From: a virus
Virus record (IMG/VR): IMGVR_UViG_3300026367_000075
Span: 1 to 30,125 of that record
Length of the DNA: 30,125 nucleotides
Direction: 5' to 3' (one strand)
Below the pieces are notes generated by a model. The model was not told the DNA's origin. It ran no database searches and saw only the letters and a list, made by a program, of their open reading frames with translations. Position 1 is the stretch's first letter, and every line of letters begins with the position of its first letter. The position numbers and the translations under genes are program-made. Shown piece by piece: positions 10,007-29,467 of the stretch.

Positions 10007-10080
10007 GATCACCTCTTTAATAGATTTAAAGGTAAGATCACGCAGCGAGCGCCGCTATTCCTCTGGCGCGTTCCCCGCGA
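10007..10080 (-). promoter_or_regulatory. Leader region before sheath gene, with hairpin and repeat motif
   Basis: This 74-base gap is among the longer ones in the late operon. It holds motif copy A (10060-10076). CCTCTGGCG (10060-10068) is perfectly inverted as CGCCAGAGG (10091-10099) inside the end of the upstream gene, so the minus-strand RNA can form a 9-bp stem around the stop codon. An AT-rich run (10015-10033) precedes the sheath start and could hold a promoter, but no clear -35/-10 pair is seen. Sheath and tube are needed in high copy, which fits local control; this is inference. Confidence 0.45.
10060..10076 (-). repeat. Late-region motif, copy A
   Basis: GGGGAACGCGCCAGAGG on the minus strand, in the gap between the DUF1353 gene and the sheath gene. 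It shares 17 bases exactly with copies C and D and 16 with copy B. The similarity to copy D continues downstream: AAT, four different bases, then GCGCTCG. Confidence 0.85.
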
Positions 10081-10434
10081 TCAGCGCCAACGCCAGAGGC
10101 TAACTGCCAGCCACATGGCCAACCGCATAGGACGGCCGACCAAATCGGCAGCCAAGGCATCATGGAAAACCGCAGCGGCTGTGACACGGTCCCAGCCCTG
10201 GCCCAGCAAATAATCGTGCAGCGCCGCTGCTTTTAAGAACTGGCGGTCGGCTGGCGAGATCAGCCACCGCAGGCAGGATGGAACAGACACATCAAAGATC
10301 GAGCCGGCCGGCACCACGACGACGAGTCCGGAGCCGCGCCGCCCGACATCCCAAATCACCGCCCGCGTCACGCGGAAGGCAGCGATCGCCGGGACAGGCT
10401 CACACCAGTCGTTGATGGCGGTGTACGAACTCAT
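10081..10434 (-). CDS. DUF1353 family phage protein
   Basis: A 117-residue protein of the DUF1353 type, common in phages but of unknown role. The block FDVSVPSCLRWLISPADRQFLKAAALHDYL (quoted in parts: FDVSVPSCLRW, LISPADRQFLKAAALHDYLL) and the following GWDRVTAAAVFHDAL match the family, with conserved H and D residues (LHD, FHD) that could bind metal. The end (MWLAVSLWRWR) is hydrophobic. The ATG at 10434 lies 2 bases after the stop of the upstream gene. It sits between fibre and sheath genes. Its last codons form one arm of the 10060-10099 inverted repeat. Confidence 0.8.
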   Translation of the reverse strand: MSSYTAINDWCEPVPAIAAFRVTRAVIWDVGRRGSGLVVVVPAGSIFDVSVPSCLRWLISPADRQFLKAAALHDYLLGQGWDRVTAAAVFHDALAADLVGRPMRLAMWLAVSLWRWR

Positions 10435-10436
10435 GG

Positions 10437-11009
10437 TCAGCCGGCGACGACCAGGCCGAGCTCGGTGGCTTTGGCGCTCGCGGTCGCCAGCGCTTCATCC
10501 AGAGCCAACGCCACTCCTTCGGCGTCGGTCGCGGCATCAATCGCCGCCACGGTGTTGCGCCGGATCCCAGCCACCGCACCGACAACCGTCTCATAGAATG
10601 CCGTCCGCGCCACGATCGTCTCTGCAACTTCGCGCAACGAAGAGCCGATCAAATCAGCCTCTGCTTGGAGAATGGGTGCGACCGTGGCCCCTTCAAGGAC
10701 AGCCTTGGCCTCGGCTGACTTGCTAGGCCAGGACGCCACCTCATCTCGAGGGATGCCCGCGCGAAGCTGTTCCGTCAGCCGATCAATCCAAGCGACCATC
10801 TGATCTAGTGCAACCTGCTTTGCCTCGTTGACGCTGATCGTAATCAACACGAAAGCCTCACCATCGAAGTATAGCGATGTACCACCCACATGCTGCCCCC
10901 ATTCTTCTTCGGAGATCGGAATAGCGTCGGCCGGAATTTCCGTGTGAATTTCAGGATCGTAGAACCCGATGATTGTTCCATCGGCAGCAAGCGTTGCGAA
11001 TTTAGACAT
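10437..11009 (-). CDS. Probable tail fibre assembly-like protein
   Basis: A 190-residue protein that directly follows the tail fibre gene, where tail fibre assembly chaperones (gp38/Tfa-like) usually lie. The opening has the form seen in such phage proteins: FATLAADGTIIGFYDPEIH, then IPADAIPISEEEWGQH, with a short beta-rich head and a helical remainder. The rest is alanine- and glutamate-rich and likely helical. AGGAG lies 6 bases before the ATG. Identification rests on the head domain and position, not on a catalytic motif. Confidence 0.6.
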   Translation of the reverse strand: MSKFATLAADGTIIGFYDPEIHTEIPADAIPISEEEWGQHVGGTSLYFDGEAFVLITISVNEAKQVALDQMVAWIDRLTEQLRAGIPRDEVASWPSKSAEAKAVLEGATVAPILQAEADLIGSSLREVAETIVARTAFYETVVGAVAGIRRNTVAAIDAATDAEGVALALDEALATASAKATELGLVVAG

Positions 11010-11018
11010 TGGGGGCTC

Positions 11019-11753
11019 CTAATGGCCGATAGCGAAATAAGTTACAGATTTTCCCGACGCTAGGGAGCCGTCGGAGATATTAGCTACGCGAAACGCGATT
11101 CCGCCTTTAAAGCCCTCCATTAGGGCCGAAACGGCGTAGACGGCACTTGCGCCGTTCTCAGGAACGCCGTGGGCGGTGCCGTAAACCTGCCGTGTTGCAT
11201 TTGGGAATGAGATCGGAAACGTCGCTTGTGCATATCCAGTAGAATTGCTCACGTCGCTTCGCCCCCACTGTAAAATAAGGCCGTTCGGCAACAAGACATA
11301 TCCGTTCCCCCCAACAGAAAGGGCCGGTTTCGTTTCGCCTGCTAGGCAATACGACCAAGGCGAGAATGGCAGAGCGGGGTCGTCGCGATCACGAAATGCT
11401 AGTTTGCCCGGACCTGGTACACCGATCTGAACAGCTTCTTCACCGGTATGGATGTGAAGTAATTTCATATCTAGCCCGAGCCACGGAGTGCCAACGGCAT
11501 CACCGCTACCAAAATACACGCCTGACTTGGCCAAGGTGTCGAGGTTGTCCGTCATCGGCGCGTCGCCGCCAATACCGGTAAGCGCCTGCTGCAACCATTT
11601 AGTCCGCTTTGCGAGCTGTTGGGCCTGCACATTGGCAAATCCCTTGTCATTCCCCAGATCCGGAGACCCGCCAGTTAAAGGTTCGCCAGCCGGCCGCTGG
11701 TGGATTTGAGCCACCCACTCAGCCGTCTCGGTCATTGGGATAAGATCAGCCAT
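11019..11753 (-). CDS. Tail fibre protein with gp53-like C-terminal tip
   Basis: A 244-residue putative receptor-binding fibre. The N-terminal part (LIPMTETAEWVAQIHQ and the GGSPDLGNDKGFANVQAQQL region) resembles phage fibre attachment segments. The C-terminal 100 residues (LLPNGLILQWGRSDVSN, then YAQATFPISFPNATRQVYG) match the gp53-like/tail fibre tip fold. Start ATG 11753 overlaps the TGA of gene I (TGATG), with GAGGTG upstream; the TTG at 11756 is less likely. It is short for a fibre, so host specificity may rest on a compact tip. Confidence 0.78.
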   Translation of the reverse strand: MADLIPMTETAEWVAQIHQRPAGEPLTGGSPDLGNDKGFANVQAQQLAKRTKWLQQALTGIGGDAPMTDNLDTLAKSGVYFGSGDAVGTPWLGLDMKLLHIHTGEEAVQIGVPGPGKLAFRDRDDPALPFSPWSYCLAGETKPALSVGGNGYVLLPNGLILQWGRSDVSNSTGYAQATFPISFPNATRQVYGTAHGVPENGASAVYAVSALMEGFKGGIAFRVANISDGSLASGKSVTYFAIGH

Positions 11754-12337
11754 CAAGTCACCTCGAATTCAAAAGTTGTATCCAGAGACCACCCCTCGTC
11801 GAGAGAGTAGCCCTCATCGAGCGCGATATTCACCAGCGCTTCGATCCGCTGCAGCCGGCACCGAGCCGGCGCAACTTTCGTCAATACGGAAACGAGAAAC
11901 TCGGCCTCACGCTGCCGCAAAGGCTCGTTCACGTAGACTGCATAAGACGCCCAGTGAGTCAGATCATGGAGCCGGTGGCCCTCGTCGAGCGCCATGCCAG
12001 CGTCCAGCTTGGGGGAACGGCCGGCCTCGATGATGTCCGCATCCCCATAACCGAATGCAGCCAGTGTCTCGCGCACCGAACCCACCGTCCCCTTGCGTCG
12101 GTGGATAGACACCGAACTCGCGATAGCGGCGCGCTTGACGTCTGACGCCCAAGCGGTATCCCAAGAATCCACCGAGAACGCCCAGGCGAGGAAAGGCAAA
12201 TGATCCGCCGCCGTAGTTTCCGCGCGAGCGTTATCCACAATAGGAATATCGATATCGACAGCAGCGGACACTGCCGCCTCGAGGACGAGCTCCACACTGG
12301 TGGAATTGGGCGGCAGAAGGGACAACAGATCAGTCAC
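11753..12337 (-). CDS. I: Baseplate/tail protein I (P2 gpI-like)
   Basis: A 194-residue protein of the P2 gpI family, which forms part of the baseplate wedge. Typical are LPFLAWAFSVDSWDTAWASD and the following RKGTVGSVRETLAAFGYGDADI. The C-terminal part repeats the form LDEG (MALDEGHRLHD, IALDEGYSLDEGWSLD). The start is GTG at 12337, overlapping the TGA of J by 8 bases, with GGTGG before it. Order J-I-fibre is as in P2. Confidence 0.9.
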   Translation of the reverse strand: MTDLLSLLPPNSTSVELVLEAAVSAAVDIDIPIVDNARAETTAADHLPFLAWAFSVDSWDTAWASDVKRAAIASSVSIHRRKGTVGSVRETLAAFGYGDADIIEAGRSPKLDAGMALDEGHRLHDLTHWASYAVYVNEPLRQREAEFLVSVLTKVAPARCRLQRIEALVNIALDEGYSLDEGWSLDTTFEFEVT

Positions 12338-13232
12338 CTAGTCCACCTGACACAATGCTGATCACGGTGCAGAATGCGGCTTCATCATCCGCGATCACCA
12401 CATCAGATGCAGGCGAGGCAAGCGCGACGTTTTGCACACCGCTCCGGTAAAGCGCCGCGATGATGCCGGCTCGCGGAATATCGCGACCAACCAGGCGCTG
12501 CGCCGCCACGAACTCATCCACCGCCGCCCTTGCCGCAGTCAAAACGACAGCAGGGTCAGGACCGTCAAAAAAAGTCAGAGTGGCATCGATCGAGAACGGC
12601 ACGATGGTGGCCGAAACAACATCAACGGTATCGCACAGCGGCCGAACCGTATCCGCATCCAGCGCCGACTGCACCGTGGCGATCAGCGCCGCATCCGCCG
12701 CGCCGTCGCCCTCAACATTGAGGACAACCACGCGCACGACACCAGGCGCAGGATTGAGAACTGCCACATCGGCAATAGCGCCTGATGCGGACAACGCAAA
12801 AAATCGATATCCCCCAAAGGTGCCGGCTGTTGAGAACCCCTCAAGCGACAACTGGATGCGGCCGCGAAAGCGGACGTCGCTCTCCAGCACTTCGAGGACC
12901 GGAGGGATTTGATCGGGAACGCCTGGGATAACCACGGCTCGCTCAACGCCGAACAAAGCGCCGATATGATCGAGGTCTGCCCCCGCCGCAAAAGCGAGCA
13001 TCGTAGCGCGCGCCGCCTCGTTAATCCGCTGGCGAAGCAGCAGCTCGCGAAACGCAACGACCTCAAGAAGTTTGGTCATTGGCTCGCTTTCAAGAGACAG
13101 CGCCTCAGCCAAGTCAGGGTCGCGGGCGACAGCGTCAGCTTTCAGCTCCGCGAGGATCGCCTCGACGCTGAGAACCTCAACGGCGTCCGGAGCCGGCAAC
13201 TTCGAAAGATCAATTGCAGAGAAGCCACTCAT
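12330..13232 (-). CDS. J: Baseplate assembly protein J (P2 gpJ-like)
   Basis: A 300-residue protein of the Baseplate_J family, a wedge component at the baseplate edge. The N-terminus (FSAIDLSKLPAPDAVEVLS), the LLRQRINEAARATMLAFAAG helix, and GADLDHIGALFGVER are hallmark stretches. The C-terminal third carries the usual RLVGRDIPRAGIIAALY block. ATGA overlap with the end of W supports the start. Length equals P2 J (302). Confidence 0.94.
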   Translation of the reverse strand: MSGFSAIDLSKLPAPDAVEVLSVEAILAELKADAVARDPDLAEALSLESEPMTKLLEVVAFRELLLRQRINEAARATMLAFAAGADLDHIGALFGVERAVVIPGVPDQIPPVLEVLESDVRFRGRIQLSLEGFSTAGTFGGYRFFALSASGAIADVAVLNPAPGVVRVVVLNVEGDGAADAALIATVQSALDADTVRPLCDTVDVVSATIVPFSIDATLTFFDGPDPAVVLTAARAAVDEFVAAQRLVGRDIPRAGIIAALYRSGVQNVALASPASDVVIADDEAAFCTVISIVSGGLGD

Positions 13233-13567
13233 GAAACAACGATCCCCTCGATTTCCAGAACTTGCTCGGATGCGACTAGGCTGGCAGTCATTGAGACCTC
13301 GAGCCGGCCCGCCCCGAATTGCGACACGGACACAGACACAAGAGAGATACGCGGCTCCCAGGCCGCGATCGCTTCCGCCGTTGCGGCAATCAGCTCGAGG
13401 CGCAGGCTCGAGGAGTATGGCCGATCGACCAGCTCAAGAAGACGCGATCCGTAATCACGGCGTAGAACGCGAGAGCCAATTGGTGTCGACAAAATATCAC
13501 GGATGGACTGCCGCAAGTGCGGCATGCCACCAATCCCAATCCCTGTCTGGCTATCTATTCCACGCAT
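13229..13567 (-). CDS. W: Baseplate protein W (gpW/gp25 family)
   Basis: A 112-residue baseplate wedge protein with lysozyme-like gp25 fold. The block HLRQSIRDILSTPIGSRVLR followed by RDYGSRLLELVD is diagnostic. The frame is open up to 13669, but the family starts near MRGIDSQTG, at 13567. No clear ribosome binding site precedes that ATG, so the start is somewhat unsure. The 49-base gap before it holds motif copy B and a 12-base palindrome. Confidence 0.88.
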   Translation of the reverse strand: MRGIDSQTGIGIGGMPHLRQSIRDILSTPIGSRVLRRDYGSRLLELVDRPYSSSLRLELIAATAEAIAAWEPRISLVSVSVSQFGAGRLEVSMTASLVASEQVLEIEGIVVS

Positions 13568-13616
13568 GATGGCAAACTGACTGCGCGGCCGGCCGCAATC
13601 CTCTGGCGCGTTCCCA
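13568..13616 (-). promoter_or_regulatory. V-W intergenic segment with palindrome and motif copy B
   Basis: A 49-base gap in an otherwise overlapping baseplate cluster. It contains motif copy B (13600-13615) and the perfect palindrome GCGGCCGGCCGC just downstream of it on the minus strand (about 13586-13597). No promoter was recognised. The RNA could fold and affect translation of W, whose start lacks a clear ribosome binding site. Confidence 0.45.
13600..13615 (-). repeat. Late-region motif, copy B
   Basis: GGGAACGCGCCAGAGG on the minus strand, between V and W. It matches 16 of the 17 bases shared by copies A, C and D; the leading G is replaced by T. Confidence 0.85.
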
Positions 13617-14096
13617 TTACTGTGGACCGCCCGTACTCGAGCCCCCGCCTTGGACGCCGCCATGCACATGGTTGACCAGGCTGATGCCAGAAGCGATCAC
13701 GTCGCCGTCCACAATGATATTGCCCGTCACCTTCATCGTGGTCAGCGACACCGTAGCGACGCCGCCATTCACCGCGATATCAACGCCAGGCATCGAGAGG
13801 CGGATCGAGCTGTCGCGATCGTCAGGCGCGGCACCATCATAGGGACCAGGATAGACGATCCCGCGCGCCGTATCCCCACCAGGCGAAAAGACAACGACTT
13901 GCGAGCCGACGACAAGCGGCACCCAAATCCGCACATCCTTGGAGCCCATCTGGGCGATCGCCAACCAACCGGACACAACGCCAGCACCGAGCGATACCCG
14001 TGCCTTTGCAACGGCCGGATCGAACTCGACCACGGTGCCGATGATGACCATGCGCTCGACGATCCGCATGACTTCGGAAAGCGCTAGATTGCTCAC
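13617..14096 (-). CDS. V: Baseplate spike protein V (P2 gpV-like)
   Basis: A 159-residue central spike that pierces the outer membrane. It has the OB-fold opening (GTVVEFDPAVAKARVSLG, then SGWLAIAQMGSKDVRIWVP) and SPGGDTARGIVYPG, followed by a beta-helix part. The end contains HVHGGVQGGG, the HxH motif that binds iron at the spike tip in P2 gpV. It starts with an ATGA overlap with its upstream neighbour. Length is slightly below P2 V (211). Confidence 0.92.
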   Translation of the reverse strand: MSNLALSEVMRIVERMVIIGTVVEFDPAVAKARVSLGAGVVSGWLAIAQMGSKDVRIWVPLVVGSQVVVFSPGGDTARGIVYPGPYDGAAPDDRDSSIRLSMPGVDIAVNGGVATVSLTTMKVTGNIIVDGDVIASGISLVNHVHGGVQGGGSSTGGPQ

Positions 14097-14617
14097 GACG
14101 AGACTTCCACGTAGTCACCCTCATGATCGAGGCCGATCCGCGGTGCATTTGATACCAGAACCACCGTCGGCTGGAATTCAGCCGGCAGCGCGAAGCCTGC
14201 GCCCAGGCGAGCCGCATGGCTCCACTCGACCAGCCAGACATCGAAGCGATTAGCCTCCGGCGCAAATTCATCCGGCTCAACGGCAAAGACTTTTGCGCCG
14301 CCCCACTCCGAACCGAACCGGTTGTTGTGCACGATGGCCGCGACCGCGCCGGCCAGCTTAAGCGTTTGCATCCGGACCGCCGTCGTCCGATGACCTAAGA
14401 CGATCCGCGCCTGGACACGGACCATGCAGGGGAACTGGCCGGTCAACGGCTCACGATCGGGATCCGGCTCAATCTCCGCGATTTGGCAGACGAGCGCCGG
14501 CACCGGCAGATCGGCAGACTCGACAGCCTCGGCCTCGCACACGTTCACATCAGGAAACGCCTCCGACAGCTTCGACACGATGCCAGCCAGCGCGGCCGAT
14601 AAATCCAAGTCGTTCAT
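14093..14617 (-). CDS. Probable tail completion/terminator protein
   Basis: A 174-residue protein in the position of tail completion genes, between the Z-like protein and V. Its mixed alpha/beta plan (an N-terminal helix LSAALAGIVSKLSEAF, then strands PALVCQIAEIEPDPD and CMVRVQARIVLG) resembles phage tail terminator proteins such as the Mu gp37/DUF1834 type. That assignment is by shape and place only. GGGGTGGG precedes the ATG, which overlaps the TGA of the upstream gene. Confidence 0.6.
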   Translation of the reverse strand: MNDLDLSAALAGIVSKLSEAFPDVNVCEAEAVESADLPVPALVCQIAEIEPDPDREPLTGQFPCMVRVQARIVLGHRTTAVRMQTLKLAGAVAAIVHNNRFGSEWGGAKVFAVEPDEFAPEANRFDVWLVEWSHAARLGAGFALPAEFQPTVVLVSNAPRIGLDHEGDYVEVSS

Positions 14618-15159
14618 TTTCGACCCACCCCTAGAATTGTCCGCGCCCTGATTTCGGACTCGAAATTGCGAAAGAACAGACCCTCGATATCGACGAACAC
14701 CTCGTCCTCGAGATAAATCATCATGCGATCGGCCACCGGCATCATGGCCTCGACGATCGGATACCGCCCCGGCCCCTTGCGGACGTAGACGCCGCGCTTT
14801 TTACCGCCAGGCTTTGCGAAGAATGCGCCTAGGACAGTGGTGCCGTTGAACTCGACCCCGCCAGGCACCGCGCGCGGCCGGCCTTTAAATGCAGAAATCG
14901 GCAGGTCGTTTGCACCGAACCACATATGGATCGACTGACCCCCGCCCTTGCGCATGCGAAACTCTTTGATGCGCCGGCGCAGCGCCGTGGCATTTCGCAG
15001 ACCGAGCTCCGACTGCAAGCCCGTCGAAGACAGGCGCCTAATGTTGCCGGCCGTCCGACGCAGCGCGCGACCATAGGCTTGATCGATCTCGCGCGCGGAG
15101 GAATCGAACTGAGTGGAGAGCCGCTCAAGCTCGACGGCATCGATGTCGAAATTAAGCAC
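14614..15159 (-). CDS. Minor tail protein Z-like
   Basis: A 181-residue protein resembling lambda-type minor tail protein Z (prophage tail protein gpZ), needed to complete the tail top for head joining. Seen are the N-terminal helix (LERLSTQFDSSAREIDQAYG), the R-rich ALRRTAGNIRRLSSTGLQSE, and AFFAKPGGKKRGVYVRKGPG with the final YPIVEAMMP. The start is GTG at 15159, overlapping the upstream stop by 8 bases; there is no better ATG. Confidence 0.75.
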   Translation of the reverse strand: MLNFDIDAVELERLSTQFDSSAREIDQAYGRALRRTAGNIRRLSSTGLQSELGLRNATALRRRIKEFRMRKGGGQSIHMWFGANDLPISAFKGRPRAVPGGVEFNGTTVLGAFFAKPGGKKRGVYVRKGPGRYPIVEAMMPVADRMMIYLEDEVFVDIEGLFFRNFESEIRARTILGVGRK

Positions 15160-15481
15160 GGAATGCGACGTTTGGCTTGGTCAGGATAACGCGCGCCAAG
15201 CCGGTGCCATCGCGCTCGGGCTCGCTCAAAATATCCCAAACTTTGCCGTTGATCACCGCCTCGTCGCCTTCATCAACGCCGGCGACATCATCTGCCGAGC
15301 AGAGCAGATGCGGCGACGACAGATCATGCTCGAGGTCGCCCAGGCCGGCTGGCGCATTGCCATCATCAAAGATGGCAGAGCCCTGCCACAAAACGACCTC
15401 GCCGCGCCGGATGGTAACCGGCACGGCGAAATCGTCCTGCCCAAAAAAGGCGTCGAGGTTTTCCCAATCAGGTGCAGGCAT
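15152..15481 (-). CDS. Head-tail joining protein (lambda gpFII-like)
   Basis: A 109-residue protein of the lambda FII type (head-tail attachment). The opening WENLDAFFGQDDFAVPVTIR, the central GSAIFDDGNAP and the closing KVWDILSEPERDGTGLARVI match the family layout of a small beta barrel. It starts 5 bases after the upstream stop. It closes the head module before the tail completion genes. Confidence 0.78.
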   Translation of the reverse strand: MPAPDWENLDAFFGQDDFAVPVTIRRGEVVLWQGSAIFDDGNAPAGLGDLEHDLSSPHLLCSADDVAGVDEGDEAVINGKVWDILSEPERDGTGLARVILTKPNVAFRA

Positions 15482-15486
15482 AAGCG

Positions 15487-15873
15487 TTACTTCGCCGCGC
15501 CGGCTGATTTGCCTTTGGCGGCTGGCTTGGCAGGCGCAGCACCGGAGCCAGCACCAGGCGTTGCATCAGCGCCCTGCTCTGGCCCGCCTTGCGGCTGGAC
15601 CAGCGGACTGCCGGAGCGGTTCTGGCCGTCTTTGGCCGGAGGCGGAAAGCCGTTCTTTGCGCTGGAATCGGTGTCGGCAGGATCCACGATGCCGGTGCCT
15701 TCCAAATCCTGATCGCCAAACAGCTCGGCTTTGCCGCGGTGCAAAAGGTTCTTTGCCAAGGTTTCGGACACAGTGCAGTCGGCCTTGGACTTGCCGCTGC
15801 CAGGAAGGATGATCTTGCCGCCGATCGCGACAGCCGAGGTGAGCCGAAGCTCGATCTTTTTCTTTTCTGCCAT
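15487..15873 (-). CDS. Hypothetical head-region protein with disordered tail
   Basis: A 128-residue protein. The first 55 residues (EKKKIELRLTSAVAIGGKII, then ETLAKNLLHRGKAE) form a short domain like those in small proteins that follow phage capsid genes. The remaining residues are rich in G, A, P, K and Q and are probably disordered. AGGTG lies 6 bases before the ATG. Function is unknown; the position, between capsid and joining protein, suggests a head accessory or decoration role. Confidence 0.65.
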   Translation of the reverse strand: MAEKKKIELRLTSAVAIGGKIILPGSGKSKADCTVSETLAKNLLHRGKAELFGDQDLEGTGIVDPADTDSSAKNGFPPPAKDGQNRSGSPLVQPQGGPEQGADATPGAGSGAAPAKPAAKGKSAGAAK

Positions 15874-15905
15874 TTTGACACCTACGTTACAGGGAAAAGG
15901 GGAAA

Positions 15906-15927
15906 GCCGACCCGCGAGCGGATCGGC
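15906..15927 (-). terminator. Strong RNA hairpin after the capsid gene
   Basis: On the minus strand GCCGATCCG pairs with CGGGTCGGC around a CTCG loop: nine base pairs with one G-U, followed by TTTCCCC. On the plus strand the same place would hold an A-C mismatch, so pairing is best in the leftward RNA. The short U run makes it a weak terminator at most. It may limit read-through or protect the abundant capsid message. Confidence 0.5.
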
Positions 15928-15934
15928 CTATGAT

Positions 15935-17965
15935 TTAGACGACGGGCTTGCGACCGAGGGCGAAGGACTCAACATGGCGGTAGGCGATATCGGCGTCCTG
16001 GAATGCGACGATCCGCAGACGGCCCTTCTTGGACATCGAATAAGGATCGACCGTCAGATCGAGGCCACCCCACATGCCGACCAGCATATCCGCGAAGTTG
16101 CCAAAGAACGTATCGCCAGAAGCGGTCTGGTTGGTGATTTCAGCGCGGTAGCCGTTCACGGTGCCGCCTTCTTCCCAGACCGGCTGGCCATTGGTGCCGG
16201 CGAACTTTTGAGTAGTTTTCATCGCACCACGGAAGGCCGCGTTGCCGACATAGGCCATCGAATCCACGTCAGCGTTGTCCGACGCAATCTCGCTCTCCAT
16301 CTGCACCAGCTCGGCATAGGTTGGCTGAACACCCGCAAATGGCACAGCGTTGATGCCCGACAGGTTCGCCAGGCCGAGCGGCATGGTGGCGGAGCCGGTG
16401 CCGTAGAAGCCGGCATAGTCCATCGTCAGGCCAAGGGACTGAGCGATATCACGTCGCACAAGCGCCTCGCCGTCGATCGAGCTCTGCTTCAGGAACGAGC
16501 GCGTCATTTCATAGTAAGTGCCAACGGTTTTCATCGACAGCTGGACATTGCCCAGATCAATGTTGCTCTCGCCAGCGTCCTCGTCCTCGCCAAGCCAGAA
16601 GCCCTGGCCACCACCGGTCTGCGTCGGAATATCGACGTTACCCGTCAGGCCGGCCAGCGGCGTCGCCATGCCCAGCAGGACCGAACGATTGCGCAGCATG
16701 GTGATGAACGACTGCGAGTGCAGGTCAGTGGCGATCGCATAGCCGCCAGTGTCGCCAGGAGCGACGCCGCCGGTGCCAGTGTTCAGAGCGCGGCGCAGGA
16801 CGTCGGCTGGAACCATGATGCCTTGCGCTTCACGGCCAGAGCTACGCGCTGCCGCCTCGGACGCTTCGCGCTCGAATGCGGCGTCTTCTTGCGCGCGGCG
16901 ATCGTTCGGATTCGCCAGCGCCCGCAGCGCCCGCAAAAAAGAGAACCGACCCGCGTCGGCATCCGACATCCCGATCACGCCGGCATCATCGTTCAGTGCA
17001 TCGTTAGAGCCGCCGCCGCCGCGACGCTCGCTCAAAGTGGACAAAAGGTGGCGCGTGAAGTCATCGACGGTTGCGCCATCACGAATGGCCTTTGCGGCAT
17101 CGGCAGCAGCGCCATGCTGCTCGCCCAGCTCGAGCAGCGACGCGGTGCGCTCCTGCTCGGCTTGCGTACCGGCGCGAACCAGCTGCTGCGTTTCAGAAGC
17201 GCGCTCGAGCGTTTCGATCACTTCGATGATCTGGCCGGCGTCGTCCACTTTGGCGCGGACCAGGTTACCACCGGCGTCCCGCATGACTTTGGTTTTCATC
17301 TTCGAACTATCCTCTTGATTGCGGGAAGCAGGCTCGCCCCCAGAAATGATGGTCTCACTATCGGCAGACGGTGCCGCCGGTGCCTCTGGCGCGTTCCCCA
17401 GTGCAGAACGGCCGACACCGACCGAGCTGTCGGCAGGCACAGCGACCAGGGAAATCTCGAAAGGCTCCCATTCCGTAACCGTGACGACATCCGGCTCGCC
17501 CTCCTTCTCTTCGGTTTTGATGGCGCGGATCATGTAGCCGACGGACACATGGCGGATCACGCCATCGATCACGTCGCGGAAAATCTCCTCGGCGCGCGCA
17601 CCGCGACCGAAGCGCAGCACTGCACGGCCGCGACGATCGCCACCAACCTCAGCCGACTCGACGACACCGATCTGCACGTCGGTGTTGTGATTCCACAGGA
17701 CGGCCGCGCCATCCAAAAGCCGCGACATATCGACAGCGCCAGGACCATGATCGAGGACTTCCGAACCGAACCAGCGCGGCACCGGCTCTTCGGAGGAAAA
17801 CGCGACCTCGACGGTCCGCGCCTCTTCGTCAAACTTTCGGACCCGCGCGGTGCGATGCAGCGCGCCCGCGCCACGGTTTCCATTGAGCTGCTCCGGCGTC
17901 AGAGACCGCACCATCGCGGCCCCGACCAAAGCGCAGCTCAAGGTCGCAAAATTACTCTTCAACAT
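15935..17965 (-). CDS. Fused prohead protease and HK97-fold major capsid protein
   Basis: A 676-residue fusion. Residues about 35-190 form an S78 prohead protease: His in VLWNHNTDVQIG, Ser in RHVSVGY, and acidic EPFEISLVAVPAD, the expected triad order. A linker (GNAPEAPAAPSADS) leads to an HK97-type capsid, with a helical delta-like scaffold region and the fold from about 380 (MVPADVLRRAL, TGGYAIATDLHSQSF, MLRNRSVLLGMATP) to the end. The ATG at 17965 has GGAG 7 bases upstream and overlaps the portal stop by 14 bases. The frame is also open up to 18166, but that stretch shadows the portal gene. An internal ATG at 17299, with AGAGGA 10 bases before it, could give free capsid (454 residues). Confidence 0.9.
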   Translation of the reverse strand: MLKSNFATLSCALVGAAMVRSLTPEQLNGNRGAGALHRTARVRKFDEEARTVEVAFSSEEPVPRWFGSEVLDHGPGAVDMSRLLDGAAVLWNHNTDVQIGVVESAEVGGDRRGRAVLRFGRGARAEEIFRDVIDGVIRHVSVGYMIRAIKTEEKEGEPDVVTVTEWEPFEISLVAVPADSSVGVGRSALGNAPEAPAAPSADSETIISGGEPASRNQEDSSKMKTKVMRDAGGNLVRAKVDDAGQIIEVIETLERASETQQLVRAGTQAEQERTASLLELGEQHGAAADAAKAIRDGATVDDFTRHLLSTLSERRGGGGSNDALNDDAGVIGMSDADAGRFSFLRALRALANPNDRRAQEDAAFEREASEAAARSSGREAQGIMVPADVLRRALNTGTGGVAPGDTGGYAIATDLHSQSFITMLRNRSVLLGMATPLAGLTGNVDIPTQTGGGQGFWLGEDEDAGESNIDLGNVQLSMKTVGTYYEMTRSFLKQSSIDGEALVRRDIAQSLGLTMDYAGFYGTGSATMPLGLANLSGINAVPFAGVQPTYAELVQMESEIASDNADVDSMAYVGNAAFRGAMKTTQKFAGTNGQPVWEEGGTVNGYRAEITNQTASGDTFFGNFADMLVGMWGGLDLTVDPYSMSKKGRLRIVAFQDADIAYRHVESFALGRKPVV
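17297..17315 (-). promoter_or_regulatory. Candidate internal ribosome binding site and ATG for free capsid protein
   Basis: On the minus strand AAGAGGA stands about 10 bases before an in-frame ATG (17299-17297) that begins MKTKVMRDAGG. Starting here would make scaffold plus capsid without the protease. Many phages need far more capsid than protease, and lambda uses an internal start in C for Nu3, so a second start is plausible. It is not proven; the spacing is a little long. Confidence 0.5.
17383..17399 (-). repeat. Late-region motif, copy C
   Basis: GGGGAACGCGCCAGAGG on the minus strand, inside the linker between the protease and capsid domains, where it encodes GNAPEA. It is identical to copies A and D over 17 bases. 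Confidence 0.85.
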
Positions 17966-19586
17966 CGTCGGTCTCCTGCTTGTCGGATTGATCATCCGGC
18001 GCATCGTCAGACGACGCGCTGGACTTGGCCTGGCCGGCCTTTGGGTTCGAAGCCGGTGCAACACCGAGCACGGCAGCCATGATGAACTCTTCAGGGATAT
18101 CGGCGTCCCGCATGCCCTGGATATCCTGCGCATAGCTGCGCCAGACCGTCTCGGGATCGCCGCCACGGCGCTGGATGATTTCAGACGGCGAGGTGAGAAG
18201 GTTATTCTTTGCCGTCACCTCGGCCGCGATATCCTTTGTGGGATCGACCCAAGGCCAGCGACGCGGCTGCCAGCGAACGGCATAGTGGCGCGACAGGTTC
18301 TCTGGGCGAAGACGCACACCGTTGGCAACCACCTTGCCCATCAGCAAGGCCGGCTCAAGCGCCGCGCGATAAACGCGATCGACCAGAACCTCGATCAACC
18401 ACTCCTGCAAATCCATCCAGTGGTCACGCTCATCCAGGACGCCTTGCCGGATAGACGAGAAATTCACGCCCTCAAGATCGTTGGCAAATGAGACATAGGA
18501 CACGCCTATGCCGGCACCGGCACCGCGCAGCATCGCCTTATGAAAAGGCGTGAACTCGCCGGTGGGATATAGGCTCGGCACGTTCTTGATCCGCGCGCCA
18601 GGCGGCAGCTCTTGATAGAGCCCCTCCTCCGCCTCAAAGACCAGCTCCTCGTCGGCAAGATCATCGTCGATATCCGGCCCCTCGCCGGCCTCCCATTCGA
18701 TGAAACCGCCAAGAGATGCAGAAGACCGCGCGTTTTTGAGCGCCGCCTTCTCAAACCCGTCCAGCATACCAAGACGCCAGAGCGCAGTCGCCGCCCAGGG
18801 CAGACCGCGCCGCTGGCCCAGCAAATCCTCGATAAAGCCGTGAATGATCTGCTGCGCCGGCACCCGCTCCAGCGACATGCCGCCATGCGTATAGCCACTC
18901 AACGACGGATTGTCGGTTGAGAAGAAATAGGCGAGCGGCCGGCCGGCGCGATTGAACTCGATGCCCTGCCGGATGAAGCGACCGCCGCCCAGGCTGTCCA
19001 CATTGTAATCGACCGGACACCGCTGCGGATCGATGACCTGCAGAGCATAGAGCATCGGCCCCGCGTCCTTGCCGCGCACTTCGCGCACAATGAATTCGCC
19101 GTCCTTCGCCGCCGATCCAACGAGCGCTTTGCAGATCCGCCGAAAGTTGCGCTTGCCTGTGACGTCGCAGTTTTCAGCGCGACACCACTCGTTCCACCAC
19201 AGCTCAATCGCGGTATTGGCATTCGCGTCCATCTTGCCATCGCGCAGCTTCGATTGCGCCTGCAAAACGATGCCGTTGGCACCGATGATGCTGCGCTCCG
19301 CGATCCGCAGGAACGACTTCATGTAATCGTTCGTTGTGGCCTGTTGCCGCGACTGCGCCACTAACACGCGCTGATTGCGATCGATCAGCGCGTCGGTGGA
19401 TATCGGCGTAGACGACATGAACGAAACCGCAGGACCCAGATCACGCCCGCCAGGCGTGAGGCTCCGCGACCGGCGAATCCGAAGCCCGCTCGTTGTGCCA
19501 ACGACGGCCGGTACCGGATCGGCCTGCATAGGCGGATCGGCCCGCGTGACCGCCTCGGACTTCGACCGCTTACCAAATCCAAACAT
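17952..19586 (-). CDS. Portal protein, lambda GpB family
   Basis: A 544-residue portal, close to lambda gpB (533). It forms the dodecameric ring at the DNA entry vertex and joins terminase and tail. Typical are SRQQATTNDYMKSFLRIAER with IIGANGIVLQAQ, NTAIELWWNEWC, the long central QRGLPWAATALWRLGMLDGF helix and SFANDLEGVNFSSIRQG. The C-terminal 40 residues are charged and of low complexity. Its ATG overlaps the stop of the upstream gene by one base (TGATG). Order terminase-W-like-portal-protease is lambda-like. Confidence 0.93.
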   Translation of the reverse strand: MFGFGKRSKSEAVTRADPPMQADPVPAVVGTTSGLRIRRSRSLTPGGRDLGPAVSFMSSTPISTDALIDRNQRVLVAQSRQQATTNDYMKSFLRIAERSIIGANGIVLQAQSKLRDGKMDANANTAIELWWNEWCRAENCDVTGKRNFRRICKALVGSAAKDGEFIVREVRGKDAGPMLYALQVIDPQRCPVDYNVDSLGGGRFIRQGIEFNRAGRPLAYFFSTDNPSLSGYTHGGMSLERVPAQQIIHGFIEDLLGQRRGLPWAATALWRLGMLDGFEKAALKNARSSASLGGFIEWEAGEGPDIDDDLADEELVFEAEEGLYQELPPGARIKNVPSLYPTGEFTPFHKAMLRGAGAGIGVSYVSFANDLEGVNFSSIRQGVLDERDHWMDLQEWLIEVLVDRVYRAALEPALLMGKVVANGVRLRPENLSRHYAVRWQPRRWPWVDPTKDIAAEVTAKNNLLTSPSEIIQRRGGDPETVWRSYAQDIQGMRDADIPEEFIMAAVLGVAPASNPKAGQAKSSASSDDAPDDQSDKQETDDVEE

Positions 19587-20143
19587 CAGCCACCAAACCT
19601 CACATTAATGCGACGGCCGAGCAGCCGGCGCGGCTTTCCATTGGCAGACAGCCGGCCCACCTCTTTGCGATACGCATCGCGCATCGTTTGCAACTCCAGG
19701 ATCGGCGTCCGGACCAGGGACCGGCCGGCGATCGTGTAGGACTGTTGATCGAGGGACGCCCGCTTTTCGAGAACCGCCTCGATTGCGTCCAGCATCCGCT
19801 GCGCATGCGATCGCGGATCGACCGCACCATCAACGCTGGCCAGATCGGCTGTGATTTTAACCTGCCCCGCGTCCACCTCGACGACATCCGCGCCAGACAC
19901 CGCACGAACCGACGCCGCATAGAGACCGCCCGCCCAGCTGGTGGTTTGCGTCGCCGGAACAGACAGCCGGTGCAGATCGCCATAAGGGACCGACGTAAGC
20001 TCGATCTTTTCAGGACCAGCCAGGATCACGATCACTGCCCACTCCGGAGCAGGATGATCGTCCAAATCCAGATCGACAGCGAAGGTCAAACCCGCTGCGA
20101 TTGAGGACGGGAAATGCTGCAAATCGAAACCTCGCGCGATCAA
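19586..20143 (-). CDS. Probable head-tail joining protein with gpW-like C-terminus
   Basis: A 185-residue protein between terminase large subunit and portal, where lambda has gpW. The C-terminal 60 residues (SYTIAGRSLVRTPILELQTM, then RDAYRKEVGRL) have the helix-hairpin-helix plan of gpW-like proteins. The N-terminal 110 residues are beta-rich (PEWAVIVILAGPEKIELTSV) and are an addition to the short lambda gpW. The start is TTG at 20143, overlapping the terminase TGA as TTGA; no ATG occurs in the first half of the frame. The assignment of the N-terminal part is open. Confidence 0.68.
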   Translation of the reverse strand: MIARGFDLQHFPSSIAAGLTFAVDLDLDDHPAPEWAVIVILAGPEKIELTSVPYGDLHRLSVPATQTTSWAGGLYAASVRAVSGADVVEVDAGQVKITADLASVDGAVDPRSHAQRMLDAIEAVLEKRASLDQQSYTIAGRSLVRTPILELQTMRDAYRKEVGRLSANGKPRRLLGRRINVRFGG

Positions 20144-22035
20144 AGACCAGACGACCGTCGCCGGCGTCTCTGCCGCGCAGCATTGCGAGCCGAGCGCTTC
20201 GATTCCTCTGGCGCGTTCCCCGCCTCCTCCTCGGCCGGCTCTTCGGCAGCCAGCGCGGCCGGTGCTATTCGAGACAGACGCTGCGGCAGGTTTGGATTGG
20301 CAATTTTAAGCGCGGCATAAGCATAGACGCGGCAGTCGAGCGCCTCGTTGCGCTCCCGCGTTTTGTGCCAGGCACGGACCGGAAAGCCGCGCCGCATTTT
20401 CGTCACCAGCTGCTCGGCCGTTAGCTGAAGAAAGAACTCCGGATCCCGCTCGATCGGAAAGTGGCAGTAGCCAGGACCGACGGCCGACATATTGGCCCGG
20501 CGCAGAATGGTCAGCTTCGCGTCGTTCACACCCACCGAAAACAGCATAACCGGCCGCGATCGCCGGCCGCTGCGGGATTTGGTTGGAGCAGAAACTACCG
20601 GCTTGTTCCAAGTGCCGCCGCCTTTGAGCGCATAAAAACCACGGCGCTGCTTTCCGCGCAGCTGCTCATAAGCCGCCTGGGTCAAACCACCCGAGCCACC
20701 CGTATCGAAGCCGGCAGCCGAGACCTTCAGCGTCGCCCCGCTTTGCGTCTCATAAGTTTGCGCCAGGAAATCGAAGACCAGCTCCCAGACGTCGTCTTTC
20801 ATCGGATCGCCCCAGAACACCTGATAGTCGATCGACCAGGACTCCTCGCCCAGACCCCAGCCGACCAGCTCGAGCTCAAGGCGATCCTCCTGCATATCGA
20901 TACCGGCCGTCAGGCAAGCGACACCCGCTGGGATTTTATCACCCCAGCTTTCCGCCCGCGCCATCAGATCGTCGGCCGCGACCCGCTCCGCCTCCTCCTC
21001 CCAGCATTCAGCCAGGGACACGTTGACGAAGGTTTGCAGATCGTCACTAGCCTTCTTTTCCAGGAAGGACTGCACGATATCGCCCAGGCGACGGAAGCAA
21101 GAATAGAGCTCCGACAGATGATAGCTCGCATGGCCAAGGAACGGCTTCTGGGCCTTCCAGCCGTGGCCCAGCTTTTCAGCATCGCGGACGGCCGCGACCC
21201 GATCGGAATCAGACCAGACGCAGCCATGCGCCGAACACTGATAGTAGGCCGACATCGGCAGATGCGCCCCGTCCGCGTCCTTTTCCCATTTAACGTTTGA
21301 CCACATGATCACTTGCGGCTCGCCGCAATGCGGACAGCCGACGTGAAACTGCCGCTGGTCTCCCTGCTCGTAAGCATCATCAATCCAGGACAGGCCGCGC
21401 ACCGTTGGCGTCGAGATTTCCAGCAACTTGCGCATATCACCAAAGGTCGCGGCCCGCTGCCAGAGCAGCGAGACAGGGTGGCCCTCGGCCGTCCGATCGT
21501 AGCCGTCCGTTTCATCCGCGACGACGAAAGGTGCCGACTTGCCGCGCTGCGTCTTAGGCGAGCCAGACCAGGCGAACATGATGAACCCGCCTGGGTAGGA
21601 TTTCATCCGCGTGTTGTTTACGCCCTTACGACCCCGCGCGGTCGCGATCCGGCTCTCGAGCTCGGGATTAGCCGCGACCAGAGGATTAAACTTGGTCTGC
21701 AGCCAGGTTTGCAGATCGCCCTCCGACGGCTGCATCATCAGCTGCGAAGTTGGGTCCATGGCAATCCGGTAGGACTGAGCACAAAGCGCGACTTGCGTCT
21801 TGCCCACCTGGGCGGCCCATTTCAGGCTGATACGCTGACAGGAAGGATCGACCGTCATATCGAGCGGCTCGCGCTGATAAGGCGCGTTGTCGAACCGGAT
21901 CAAACCAGGGATCGCGTTCCCGACCGGAATGTAGACCGACCGCTCCGCCCAGACCGAAGGCTTCAAATCCGGAGGCGGCTGCAGCGCCGCCAAGGCGGAG
22001 GCCATCATGCGATGCGCGGCTGGGCTATACTCCAT
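20140..22035 (-). CDS. terL: Terminase large subunit, lambda GpA family
   Basis: A 631-residue DNA-packaging motor and nuclease. The ATPase has a Walker A-like loop at residues 74-81 (AAQVGKTQ) and a Walker B-like stretch FVVADETDGYD. The nuclease half follows, with GVACLTAGIDMQEDRLELEL and VSAAGFDTGGSGG carrying acidic metal ligands, and the family-typical LTAEQLVTKMRRGFPVRAWH. Members of this family usually cut at cos sites. The ATG at 22035 overlaps the small subunit by 11 bases. Motif copy D lies near its 3' end, beyond the catalytic core. Confidence 0.94.
   Translation of the reverse strand: MEYSPAAHRMMASALAALQPPPDLKPSVWAERSVYIPVGNAIPGLIRFDNAPYQREPLDMTVDPSCQRISLKWAAQVGKTQVALCAQSYRIAMDPTSQLMMQPSEGDLQTWLQTKFNPLVAANPELESRIATARGRKGVNNTRMKSYPGGFIMFAWSGSPKTQRGKSAPFVVADETDGYDRTAEGHPVSLLWQRAATFGDMRKLLEISTPTVRGLSWIDDAYEQGDQRQFHVGCPHCGEPQVIMWSNVKWEKDADGAHLPMSAYYQCSAHGCVWSDSDRVAAVRDAEKLGHGWKAQKPFLGHASYHLSELYSCFRRLGDIVQSFLEKKASDDLQTFVNVSLAECWEEEAERVAADDLMARAESWGDKIPAGVACLTAGIDMQEDRLELELVGWGLGEESWSIDYQVFWGDPMKDDVWELVFDFLAQTYETQSGATLKVSAAGFDTGGSGGLTQAAYEQLRGKQRRGFYALKGGGTWNKPVVSAPTKSRSGRRSRPVMLFSVGVNDAKLTILRRANMSAVGPGYCHFPIERDPEFFLQLTAEQLVTKMRRGFPVRAWHKTRERNEALDCRVYAYAALKIANPNLPQRLSRIAPAALAAEEPAEEEAGNAPEESKRSARNAARQRRRRRSSGL
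20205..20221 (-). repeat. Late-region motif, copy D
   Basis: GGGGAACGCGCCAGAGG on the minus strand, within the low-complexity C-terminal tail of the terminase gene, encoding GNAPEE. Similarity to copy A extends beyond the motif through AAT and GCGCTCG. Confidence 0.85.
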
Positions 22036-25291: not shown

Positions 25292-26143
25292 TCAGGCTCC
25301 TTTAGCCGTTGAGGACAGGTCGTAACGCGATAAGACACCACGGATGGCAACCAGCGCCTCTGGCACGCTCATGGGCCGCTGTGCCGGCTCAGGATCGTCC
25401 CCAGCCACCACCACGCCTGTCTCCGAGGGAAACCAGTGCGGCAGCTTTGACAGCGCCTCATGCATCGCGGCGCGCGTCGCAGGACCAGGAACCCCATCGA
25501 CATAGAGGCCGCCATATTTCATCTGAAAGGCGCGAACTGCGTTAGGTGCCATTCCGAGCAAAACCAGAGCGCAGCGCGGATAGAGCGCCAGGCGATCCGC
25601 GTAGCCATTCAGCCCGCCGTTGATCGTCTTCGTGACCATTTCGATATCGCCGCGCCGCGCGTAGCGATTAAGGTCGTTTGTCTCCCAGAACCAGATAGGC
25701 GCGAGCCCCTCCCACGGATCCTCTAGGATGCGATGCGGCTCGACTTCGAAGTCAGGCACGGATAGAAACAGCGCGCAGCACCAATCGCGGAAGCGGCGAT
25801 AGTTATCACCGCCCGTCACCATCATCGCAGTGCGGCCTTTGAACAGCTCGCCATCGCCATCGCGCGCGGCAGAGTTGCCAAGGTCTGTACGGATATCATA
25901 GCGCGCCTGCGCGACCGTTGGGCCCCAGACCTCCTCGTCCCACATGAAGCGCCCGCTCTCATGCGCCACTTGGGCGAGATACTGCGCCAGGACGGCCGGC
26001 TCGTTTAGACCAGCACCGACGGCGCGCACATCGAGCGCAGCGATCACCGCCTCTGCATTGGCAGAGAACCGGCTGTTAGCCGCCGCGCCGCACATGAGCG
26101 CGATAGCCGACACGGTAAGAATTCGAGAGCTGGACACGATCAT
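25292..26143 (-). CDS. Endolysin, glycoside hydrolase family 19-like
   Basis: A 283-residue cell-wall hydrolase. The GH19/lysozyme-like fold is marked by LAQVAHESGRF with catalytic E62, a second acid in EEVWGPT, and the late WFWETNDLNRYARRGDIEMV with TINGG. Residues about 205-232 (AVRAFQMKYGGLYVDGVPGP) look like a short peptidoglycan-binding repeat. The N-terminus is mildly hydrophobic (ILTVSAIALMCGAA) but aligns with the first helix of the fold, so a signal is uncertain. GGAAGGGG precedes the ATG, which overlaps the upstream TGA. No spanin gene was recognised nearby. Confidence 0.85.
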   Translation of the reverse strand: MIVSSSRILTVSAIALMCGAAANSRFSANAEAVIAALDVRAVGAGLNEPAVLAQYLAQVAHESGRFMWDEEVWGPTVAQARYDIRTDLGNSAARDGDGELFKGRTAMMVTGGDNYRRFRDWCCALFLSVPDFEVEPHRILEDPWEGLAPIWFWETNDLNRYARRGDIEMVTKTINGGLNGYADRLALYPRCALVLLGMAPNAVRAFQMKYGGLYVDGVPGPATRAAMHEALSKLPHWFPSETGVVVAGDDPEPAQRPMSVPEALVAIRGVLSRYDLSSTAKGA

Positions 26144-26550
26144 GCCCCTTCCATTTGTTGAGCAGCGGCAAGCGAGGCAATCTCGCGAACGCGGTAGGCC
26201 GAGAGCCGCGTGAGCTCGGCCACCTCATCGACAGGCAGGCCGTCACGAATGAGGTCCGGAATTGCCTGGTGGTGAAAGCGCCGCTCGATCACGCGGCAAT
26301 TGGCCGGCTGCAAGATCATGCCCGCAAAGGCGCGGCTCATACGCTGAGCCATCTTCCATCCCAGCTTGCGCACCAGCCAGTGATCGACAGGGAGCGTCTT
26401 TGGCACGTAGAGGCCGCGCCGCCATGTGCGCGAGCCGGCCTGCGGCAGCGAGGCGATAAGATCGAGCGCGAGCTCGCGGCCAATGACCTCTGCGATTTCA
26501 GCAGCTGATCGTGGCAAGTCGGACAGGTCCTCACACATCGTGCGGTTCAT
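26140..26550 (-). CDS. Mor-like helix-turn-helix regulator
   Basis: A 136-residue protein resembling the Mor/C family of phage late activators: an N-terminal helical part (AEIAEVIGRELALDLIASLP), a central strand with basic residues (YVPKTLPVDHWLVRKLGWKM) and a C-terminal helix-turn-helix (IRDGLPVDEVAELTRLSAYR). In Mu this family switches on middle/late promoters. It sits just ahead of the lysis genes, with ATGA overlaps on both sides. It may activate the late operon from a promoter in the 24906-25073 gap; that is inference. Confidence 0.68.
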   Translation of the reverse strand: MNRTMCEDLSDLPRSAAEIAEVIGRELALDLIASLPQAGSRTWRRGLYVPKTLPVDHWLVRKLGWKMAQRMSRAFAGMILQPANCRVIERRFHHQAIPDLIRDGLPVDEVAELTRLSAYRVREIASLAAAQQMEGA

Positions 26551-26942: not shown

Positions 26943-27223
26943 TAGCGCTGGGCCTTCGTTTCGATCGAGCCGCGCAACCGCTTGCCCGCATAGGCCAGAG
27001 CTGAACAAACATCCCGAGCCACATGATCGAAGGCAGCCCTACCGCGCTGGGCGGCATGGGCGGCAACGATCTCCTCGAGCGAGTGGTAGCGGTGCTTCTG
27101 TAGGCGCATGCCGACGACATCAACGATCAGGACCGCATCACCCGCCTCCTCGTCCACGGTCACGTAGGCATCGCCAAAGCGCGTCCCGTTGGCTTTTACG
27201 TCGGAATGAATCGATGGGCTCAC
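26942..27223 (-). CDS. Small hypothetical early protein
   Basis: A 93-residue protein starting at GTG 27223, overlapping the upstream stop as GTGA, with AGGTG 6 bases before. The longer frame to 27310 is a shadow of the initiator gene. The visible parts are ANGTRFGDAYVTVDEEAGDA, a beta hairpin-like stretch, and a helical basic end (YAGKRLRGSIETKAQR). No family was recognised. It sits between the initiator and DUF1064 genes, so a replication-related role is possible. Confidence 0.68.
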   Translation of the reverse strand: MSPSIHSDVKANGTRFGDAYVTVDEEAGDAVLIVDVVGMRLQKHRYHSLEEIVAAHAAQRGRAAFDHVARDVCSALAYAGKRLRGSIETKAQR

Positions 27224-28089
27224 AGGACACCTACAGCTTGGCATTGGGATTGGGTCACCAGGGCAGCGGCGATGAACTCGCGCGCCTTGGTTGCGGAGAT
27301 CGAGCGGCACCGCGCGGGATTGCCCGAAATGATATCAGCCACAGCGGTGGGAACTTCCGGCAGGCTCTTAGCCACCGCAGGCGTCGCCGAGTCTTGCCAG
27401 CTTTCAGCAGCGAGCCAATTCTGGGGCTTCTTCGGAAAACCACGCTTCACCACATCGGAGCCGGCATAGGACCGAGCGGCAGCGATTACCGTGGACGCGT
27501 CGGCACCGGCATGCAGCGCCACATCCCAAGCCGCCTCTGCGAATCTGCGATCAACCCGATTGGGGAAAGCATCCCAGAAATTATCAAAACCAAGATCACC
27601 GCCACCAGCGGCCGCAGGCGCGTCTGGTTGTATTACTGGTTCTCTTACAAGGTTAGTGTCACAATTTGAGACACGGCTATCGCCATTTTTGAGACACGGC
27701 TCTGGCGTTTTTTGAGACACGGCCCGTGTTTCATTGTGAGACACGGCACCCGCATCAGGCCGTGTTTCATTTTGAGACACGGCATCACCGGGCAAATCAG
27801 GAACGGACAGATCGGTGTCGCAGCCCAGAATGTAGGAGGTGCGCTGCTGTCGCTTAGTGCGGGGATCAATGCCAGCCACCCGACGGATCAAACCACACCG
27901 CTCGAGCTCGTCGAGATGGCGGTTCACCGAGGCCCGCGACATTTCGGTGTCGTCGGCTAACCCCTCCTGTGAGGGATCGCACCGCTTGGTGTCCTTGTTG
28001 TGACGATCGGCCAGCTGCCAGAGCAGCAGCTTAGTCGCAGGCTTGAGCCCGCGCTGCTTGATCGCCCAGTTTGTCGCGTCATGGCTCAT
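27220..28089 (-). CDS. Replication initiator-like protein (winged helix N-terminus, lambda O-like layout)
   Basis: A 289-residue protein. Residues about 15-85 form a winged helix (ATKLLLWQLADRHNKDTKRC, then EGLADDTEMSRASVNRHLDE, LERCGLIRRVAG). The middle (about 100-145) is low in complexity and encoded by repeated DNA. The C-terminal part (FDNFWDAFPNRVDRRFAEAA, KPQNWLAAESWQ) resembles phage replication proteins that recruit helicase. Lambda O has the same plan: DNA-binding head, ori iterons in the middle of the gene, helicase-loader contact at the end. GGGAGGGG precedes the ATG. A strong terminator lies just upstream. Confidence 0.75.
   Translation of the reverse strand: MSHDATNWAIKQRGLKPATKLLLWQLADRHNKDTKRCDPSQEGLADDTEMSRASVNRHLDELERCGLIRRVAGIDPRTKRQQRTSYILGCDTDLSVPDLPGDAVSQNETRPDAGAVSHNETRAVSQKTPEPCLKNGDSRVSNCDTNLVREPVIQPDAPAAAGGGDLGFDNFWDAFPNRVDRRFAEAAWDVALHAGADASTVIAAARSYAGSDVVKRGFPKKPQNWLAAESWQDSATPAVAKSLPEVPTAVADIISGNPARCRSISATKAREFIAAALVTQSQCQAVGVL
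27665..27783 (-). repeat. Iteron-like repeats inside the initiator gene; candidate replication origin
   Basis: Five direct copies of GCCGTGTCTCAAA (minus strand) end at 27783, 27747, 27723, 27700 and 27677; copy 27747 has one change (CAAA to CACA). Spacings are 36, 24, 23 and 23 bases. Two inverted relatives (GCCGTGTTTCA at 27759-27769 and GCCCGTGTTTCA at 27722-27733) lie between them. The copies fall in all three reading frames (AVSQ, PCLK and RVSN are encoded), so the DNA rather than the peptide is conserved. An AT-richer stretch (27628-27665) follows. This is the layout of the lambda ori within O. Confidence 0.72.
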
Positions 28090-28716: not shown

Positions 28717-28730
28717 TTGGTGACGTTACA

Positions 28731-28744
28731 TCCTCTAAAGCGGA
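28731..28744. promoter_or_regulatory. Operator-like site 1
   Basis: TCCTCTAAAGCGGA, close to the palindromic consensus TCCTCTAAAGAGGA. It fills the spacer between -35 and -10 of the leftward Cro-like promoter, where a bound repressor would block RNA polymerase. Confidence 0.65.
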
Positions 28745-28755
28745 CATTGCAAGCC

Positions 28756-29408: not shown

Positions 29409-29423
29409 TAAGTTGATTGCATG

Positions 29424-29437
29424 ACCTCTAAAGAGGA
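29424..29437. promoter_or_regulatory. Operator-like site 5
   Basis: ACCTCTAAAGAGGA, the best palindrome of the set (CCTCTAAAGAGG). It fills the spacer of the rightward early promoter, exactly as site 1 does in the leftward one. Confidence 0.68.
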
Positions 29438-29467
29438 TGTAAGGTGAGCCCGTAACGGAGGTTCACC

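Follow-up and report, generated by a model that had tools for sequence, protein, structure and literature searches.

The window, that is, the whole 30,125-base stretch analysed, is an IMG/VR virus record with a lambda-type head (terminase gpA, a lambda-family portal, and an S78 protease fused to an HK97-type capsid) and tail genes of the P2 contractile type (V, W, J, and sheath). The 17-base motif GGGGAACGCGCCAGAGG occurs on its minus strand at 10060-10076, 17383-17399, and 20205-20221, while a fourth minus-strand copy at 13600-13616 reads TGGGAACGCGCCAGAGG, with one mismatch to the 17-mer at the first base. These four are the only matches in the window at up to three mismatches, and shuffled sequences gave a mean of 0.27 and never four, which bears out the original prediction that four copies in a single orientation exceed chance. 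The late-region features considered below are the following:

20140-22035, minus strand: terminase large subunit gene, with promoter 1 in its tail
20203-20221, minus strand: candidate activator box of late promoter 1 (GGGGAACGCGCCAGAGGAA), in the 3′-terminal part of the terminase large subunit gene
20179-20184, minus strand: -10 of late promoter 1, AATGCT; predicted start about 20172
15935-18166, minus strand: protease-capsid fusion ORF (Pfam Peptidase_S78, Phage_capsid), containing promoter 2 and the internal capsid start
17381-17399, minus strand: candidate activator box of late promoter 2, in the protease-capsid linker
17357-17362, minus strand: -10 of late promoter 2, GATAGT; predicted start 17350
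17299, minus strand: in-frame capsid ATG in the protease-capsid ORF, preceded by the Shine-Dalgarno-like AAGAGGAT; likely a separate capsid protein start
13598-13616, minus strand: candidate activator box of late promoter 3, between V and W, with one mismatch in the 17-mer
13574-13579, minus strand: -10 of late promoter 3, CAGTTT; predicted start 13567, the A of the gpW ATG
13229-13567, minus strand: gpW gene (baseplate wedge, gp25-like; Pfam GPW_gp25)
10058-10076, minus strand: candidate activator box of late promoter 4, upstream of the tail sheath gene
10034-10039, minus strand: -10 of late promoter 4, GATCTT; predicted start 10027
10006, minus strand: tail sheath ATG, with the Shine-Dalgarno-like AAAGAGG just before it
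26140-26550, minus strand: gene for a putative late transcriptional activator (136 aa, phrog_836) with a C-terminal helix-turn-helix, the proposed box binder

The copies were originally placed at borders between functional blocks, with the DNA conserved rather than a peptide. Both the positions and the conservation of the DNA hold, and the reading of the protease-capsid copy as GNAPE is correct, but the borders are better understood as points where transcription units begin.

Elsewhere in the window, three elements of about 25 bases with palindromic TGAGACACGG arms (27654-27784) lie inside a replication-initiator gene (27220-28089) and look iteron- or origin-like. A 25-base inverted repeat pair, 80% complementary and 673 bases apart (28723-28747 and 29421-29445), may represent operators, and two adjacent sulfotransferase-like genes (1459-2097 and 2146-2772) are found at one record end.

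A -10 element at fixed distance from the motif

Each copy of the motif has the appearance of a late promoter's upstream part. Counting from the box end GAGGAA in 95 deduplicated sites, position 22 is A in 85/95 and position 26 is T in 85/95, position 23 is T in 49/95, and position 33, the presumed start point, is A in 57/95, with the spacer at roughly positions 3-18 nearly unconserved. The conserved positions fit a -10 hexamer at 21-26 followed seven bases on by the start, which would put the box at about -49 to -31. The spacing test was repeated in lytic phages on 49 sites chosen by box similarity alone, where the A...T template was counted 16 and 31 times at offsets 21 and 22, and 0 to 6 times at any of the remaining offsets between 10 and 39.

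In the window, a correctly spaced -10 is present at 4/4 copies, and a TTGACA-like -35 at the usual distance is absent from all four, that position being filled by the 3′ end of the box. A weight-matrix scan for the box plus the downstream -10, with a matrix built from relatives and including the window's own sites, scored the four copies at 35.6 to 46.1, as against 6.7 for the next candidate in the window and 9.1 for the best match in 20 shuffles. The matrix scan found no fifth copy 3′ of the window's activator gene, a place where many relatives have one.

At gpW, the ATG lies at the predicted +1, within one or two bases, in 31/32 records (some of them near-duplicates) with differing box and spacer sequences, Alexa being the exception. 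No Shine-Dalgarno sequence was found before the gpW ATG. Pairing of the 18 bases 5′ of this ATG with the anti-Shine-Dalgarno sequence averaged -1.0 kcal/mol in the IMG/VR phages and the window and -2.4 in annotated lytic phages, weaker than in random 18-mers (-3.4) and in the remaining late genes compared (means between -3.4 and -8.2). Since the start codon is predicted to be the first transcribed base, the gpW mRNA, with its 5′ end so placed, would be leaderless, and conservedly so. At the protease-capsid linker, an internal capsid start similar to that of the window follows the promoter in 8/8 relatives examined (for example, MNEKILRDAAGNLVRA in Mica), and the linker promoter would thus yield capsid without protease.

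Homologous places and different box letters in related phages

Megablast returned no near phage records, and tblastn was therefore used. Relatives were gathered by terminase and by box patterns. In their boxes CGCCAGAGG is constant, whereas the 5′ part, nearly uniform within a phage, differs between phages and reads GGGGAACG in the window's group, GGGGGAAC in most, GGGGAACC in L038, GGGGGAAA in L063, GGGAAATC in L053 and L055, and GGAAAAMC in L052. The named phages ep3, Arya, KA2-1, MQ-4, Mano, Persinger, PPpW-3, Mica, FoX3, FoX5, and Alexa each carry their own box or that of a close group, as exemplified by GGAAATTCCGGACATGG in FoX and GACAAACCCCAAGAAGA in ep3. Their boxes occupy homologous places, namely the terminase end, the protease-capsid linker, the V-W border, and the region before the sheath gene, and most have a further box where the activator gene ends, ahead of the lysis genes. 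The terminase-end place is common to ep3, Mano, Mica, PPpW-3, FoX, Arya, KA2-1, MQ-4, Persinger, and Alexa. Every lytic relative has a box version of its own, found at 3 to 5 of these places; reversed sequence gave 0 matches. The box of G024, TGTCGCATTCTGGCGTAAAAA, is unlike all others, and is followed at fixed distance by TAnnnT after 5/6 copies and by TTTGAT after the sixth.

In the papers searched, the box sequences did not turn up in a phage context, nor did anything relevant on the late promoters of these phages, and the annotated records retrieved for them do not list such promoters.

Other repeats were recorded in the relatives. A weaker copy of the unrelated box of L058 (G024) is found at 14313-14333, immediately 5′ of the phage's activator gene, which suggests autoregulation. 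In L049, two extra boxes about 294 bases apart (1505-1521 and 1799-1815; 2233 and 2527 in G005) lie away from the late genes and are part of a local duplication, with GCGCCCGCGGGGAATCATGC after each of them. Palindromic repeats, AACAATSATTGTT in L164 (ep3) and CGTTTAAACG in L166 (Alexa), occur at several places untied to late promoters and are possibly operators of other regulators.

The phrog_836 protein as candidate reader of the box

The putative activator of the window matches the phrog_836 "late transcriptional activator" profile with an E-value of 5.7e-17, residues 10-129 of 136 aligning with profile positions 10-121 of 133. Its gene overlaps the start of a putative endolysin gene and lies on the same strand as the boxes, and every near-complete relative examined encodes a phrog_836 homolog. 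Against Pfam Mor (PF08765), the homologs of FoX5 and L049 scored 30.7 and 27.4 bits (cut-off 24.9), that of L059 fell below it at 21.6, and the window protein gave no match. An AlphaFold model of the window protein (mean pLDDT 82.5) superposed on Mu C (9l0x_I) with a VIA Z of 7.4 and an rmsd of 2.1 over 53 residues, in the C-terminal domain only and at a level that many helix-turn-helix proteins share. A Foldseek search with the model gave no significant match (E above 1), and a PDB sequence search gave one weak match, 8vd6. The activator, probably a distant Mor/C-like protein, is the likely binder of the box.

Association of protein and box was examined in 79 loci fetched by the phrog_836 protein alone, several of them from phages already in the relative set. 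In a blind scan of these loci for families of at least three recurring 17-mers with a -10 at the expected spacing, 34/79 loci gave box families, compared with 3/79 in reversed sequence. Loci L219-L221, one phage's copies with internal repeats, give three in each set, and the counts without them are 31 and 0.

Boxes and activators also vary together, as assessed by Mantel tests on 42 non-redundant activator-box pairs. Box distance correlated with the distance of the C-terminal half of the activator when the N-terminal half was held constant (r 0.34, p 0.0003) and when terminase was held constant (r 0.22, p 0.003), whereas the N-terminal half added nothing (r 0.06, p 0.25). Terminase distance still correlated with box distance with the activator held constant (r 0.40), and shared descent is therefore part of the signal. 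An earlier Mantel test on 29 phages pointed in the same direction. Individual pairs agree: the recognition helix SASQVRLILQR is found in L242 and L249, both with box GCCTATCTCGCAGGRGG; SRETVNA in L254 and L264, both with GCAGAACCCACAAGAGG; and SERTV in ep3, MQ-4, KA2-1, and Arya, all with GACA...GAAGA. As phages that share a helix are also relatives, these pairs illustrate the link rather than prove it.

We propose, with a probability of about 0.88, that a late activator encoded by the phage itself binds this motif, which is present at promoters for four late units. These promoters would lack a usable -35 and carry a weak -10 (xATxxT) at fixed spacing from a box spanning about -49 to -31. The activator (26140-26550) would contact the box through its C-terminal helix-turn-helix and recruit host RNA polymerase, switching on the head genes (portal onwards) from late promoter 1 at the terminase end, the capsid from the linker promoter, the baseplate unit starting at gpW, and the tail unit starting at the sheath. 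Each phage would keep one near-uniform box, whose copies would change jointly because one protein reads them all, and box differences between phages would run in step with the DNA-binding half of the activator. Computation establishes the copies, their places and spacing, the -10, and the co-occurrence and co-variation of box and activator, from which binding, activation, start sites, and leaderless translation are inferred. The -10 at fixed distance, the activator gene within the window, and the box that changes in step between phages are points that the original prediction missed, although the link to late-transcription control among its options stands. A few activators count against this reading: those of L268 and L282 are without the helix-turn-helix, yet boxes are present. 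In L268, L278, L282, and related loci, a short NKGGRPKK-type tail takes the place of the C-terminal helix-turn-helix, and the boxes end in CGTGGAA.

The late promoters could be real and read by a phage regulator other than the phrog_836 protein, which we consider unlikely. Binding of the box by phrog_836 is something we infer from sequence, boxes also track terminase divergence, and these phages encode further putative DNA-binding proteins. However, loci chosen by the phrog_836 protein alone carry boxes, box variation follows the C-terminal and not the N-terminal half of this particular protein, and many phages have one box where the gene for this protein ends, ahead of the lysis genes.

That a prophage repressor acts on the sites as one-way "stoperators," blocking transcription in the lysogen from gene borders, is very unlikely. 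It would account for sites that are asymmetric, mostly in one orientation, at gene borders, and uniform within each phage, but under it neither a fixed-spacing -10 with a start A nor a gpW start codon at the predicted +1 is expected. An RNA element, whether hairpin, processing site, or antitermination site, has still less in its favor. The GCGC of the window copies can pair with a later GCGC, as originally noted, but this sequence is restricted to the window's subgroup, most relatives having ACCGCC, CCCGCC, or TCCGCC instead; bases 3-18 after the box are nearly unconserved, and no Rfam match was obtained. The suggestion of a recombination linker for module exchange drew on the copies lying at gene-block borders and is now highly improbable, since the same homologous borders are occupied in phages with unlike boxes and a strict -10 spacing would have no role in such a linker. 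Finally, invasion of the phage by a host repeat is rejected because a search of 84,980 bacterial and archaeal genomes (257 Gb) gave 30 matches to the 17-mer, scattered over unrelated phyla, where about 30 on both strands are expected by chance.

Beyond the window, we regard it as fairly probable that a widespread phage family pairs a Mor/C-like activator with an asymmetric box, that a promoter fused to the gpW start codon sets the level of gpW through a leaderless mRNA, and that the DNA-binding half and all its sites have been rewritten together repeatedly. Named members of the family infect beta- and gammaproteobacteria, and the others are uncultured or prophage records. If this is true, the family offers dozens of natural matched activator-operator sets. 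The boxes also allow late transcription units to be mapped from sequence in ep3/Jilinvirus, Foxunavirus, Micavirus, Manovirus, PPpW-3, and many IMG/VR records. The genomes would preserve the joint change of a regulator and the sites it acts on, with the box matched in each phage to its own activator, and the 42 non-redundant activators with their multi-copy targets would supply natural data on how specificity changes when several sites must co-change. The fusion of promoter and start codon at gpW would, in turn, be a testable case of selected leaderless translation in proteobacterial phages.

Comparison with known systems

Late promoters of P2 are activated by Ogr, a zinc-finger protein, at a TGT-N12-ACA dyad near -55. 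The phages studied here resemble P2 in their tail and baseplate genes and in having several late units with their own promoters, but the predicted activator is a helix-turn-helix protein and its box is centered near -40. Mycobacteriophage stoperators and start-associated sequences block transcription or adjoin ribosome-binding sites. They are likewise short, asymmetric sites at gene borders, uniform within a phage and different between phages, whereas the boxes described here precede a -10 at fixed spacing.

The closest parallel is phage Mu, where the dyad recognized by Mor spans -51 to -36 of a promoter that has no -35 and C acts at four late promoters (PMC4287176; PMC4461284). There, too, one phage-encoded helix-turn-helix activator acts at several promoters without a good -35 (C at Plys, PI, PP, and Pmom; Mor at Pm), and the box lies just upstream of or overlaps the -35, as it does here by the predicted start site; moreover, the activator homologs of FoX5 and L049 match Pfam Mor. 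Unlike the Mu sites, the window box spans about -49 to -31, its copies are nearly identical, one promoter is fused to a start codon, and the box is not dyad-symmetric (a fraction of 0.556 of shuffles reach its symmetry). Elsewhere, the dyad symmetry of the FoX box is clear (0.006) and that of the main relatives' box weak (0.04). With a layout much alike and homologs that match Pfam Mor, but a window protein that does not, an indecisive fold match, and a non-dyad box, we claim likeness and do not class these promoters as Mor/C promoters. As judged from these comparisons, the system probably works like Mor/C and is related to it.
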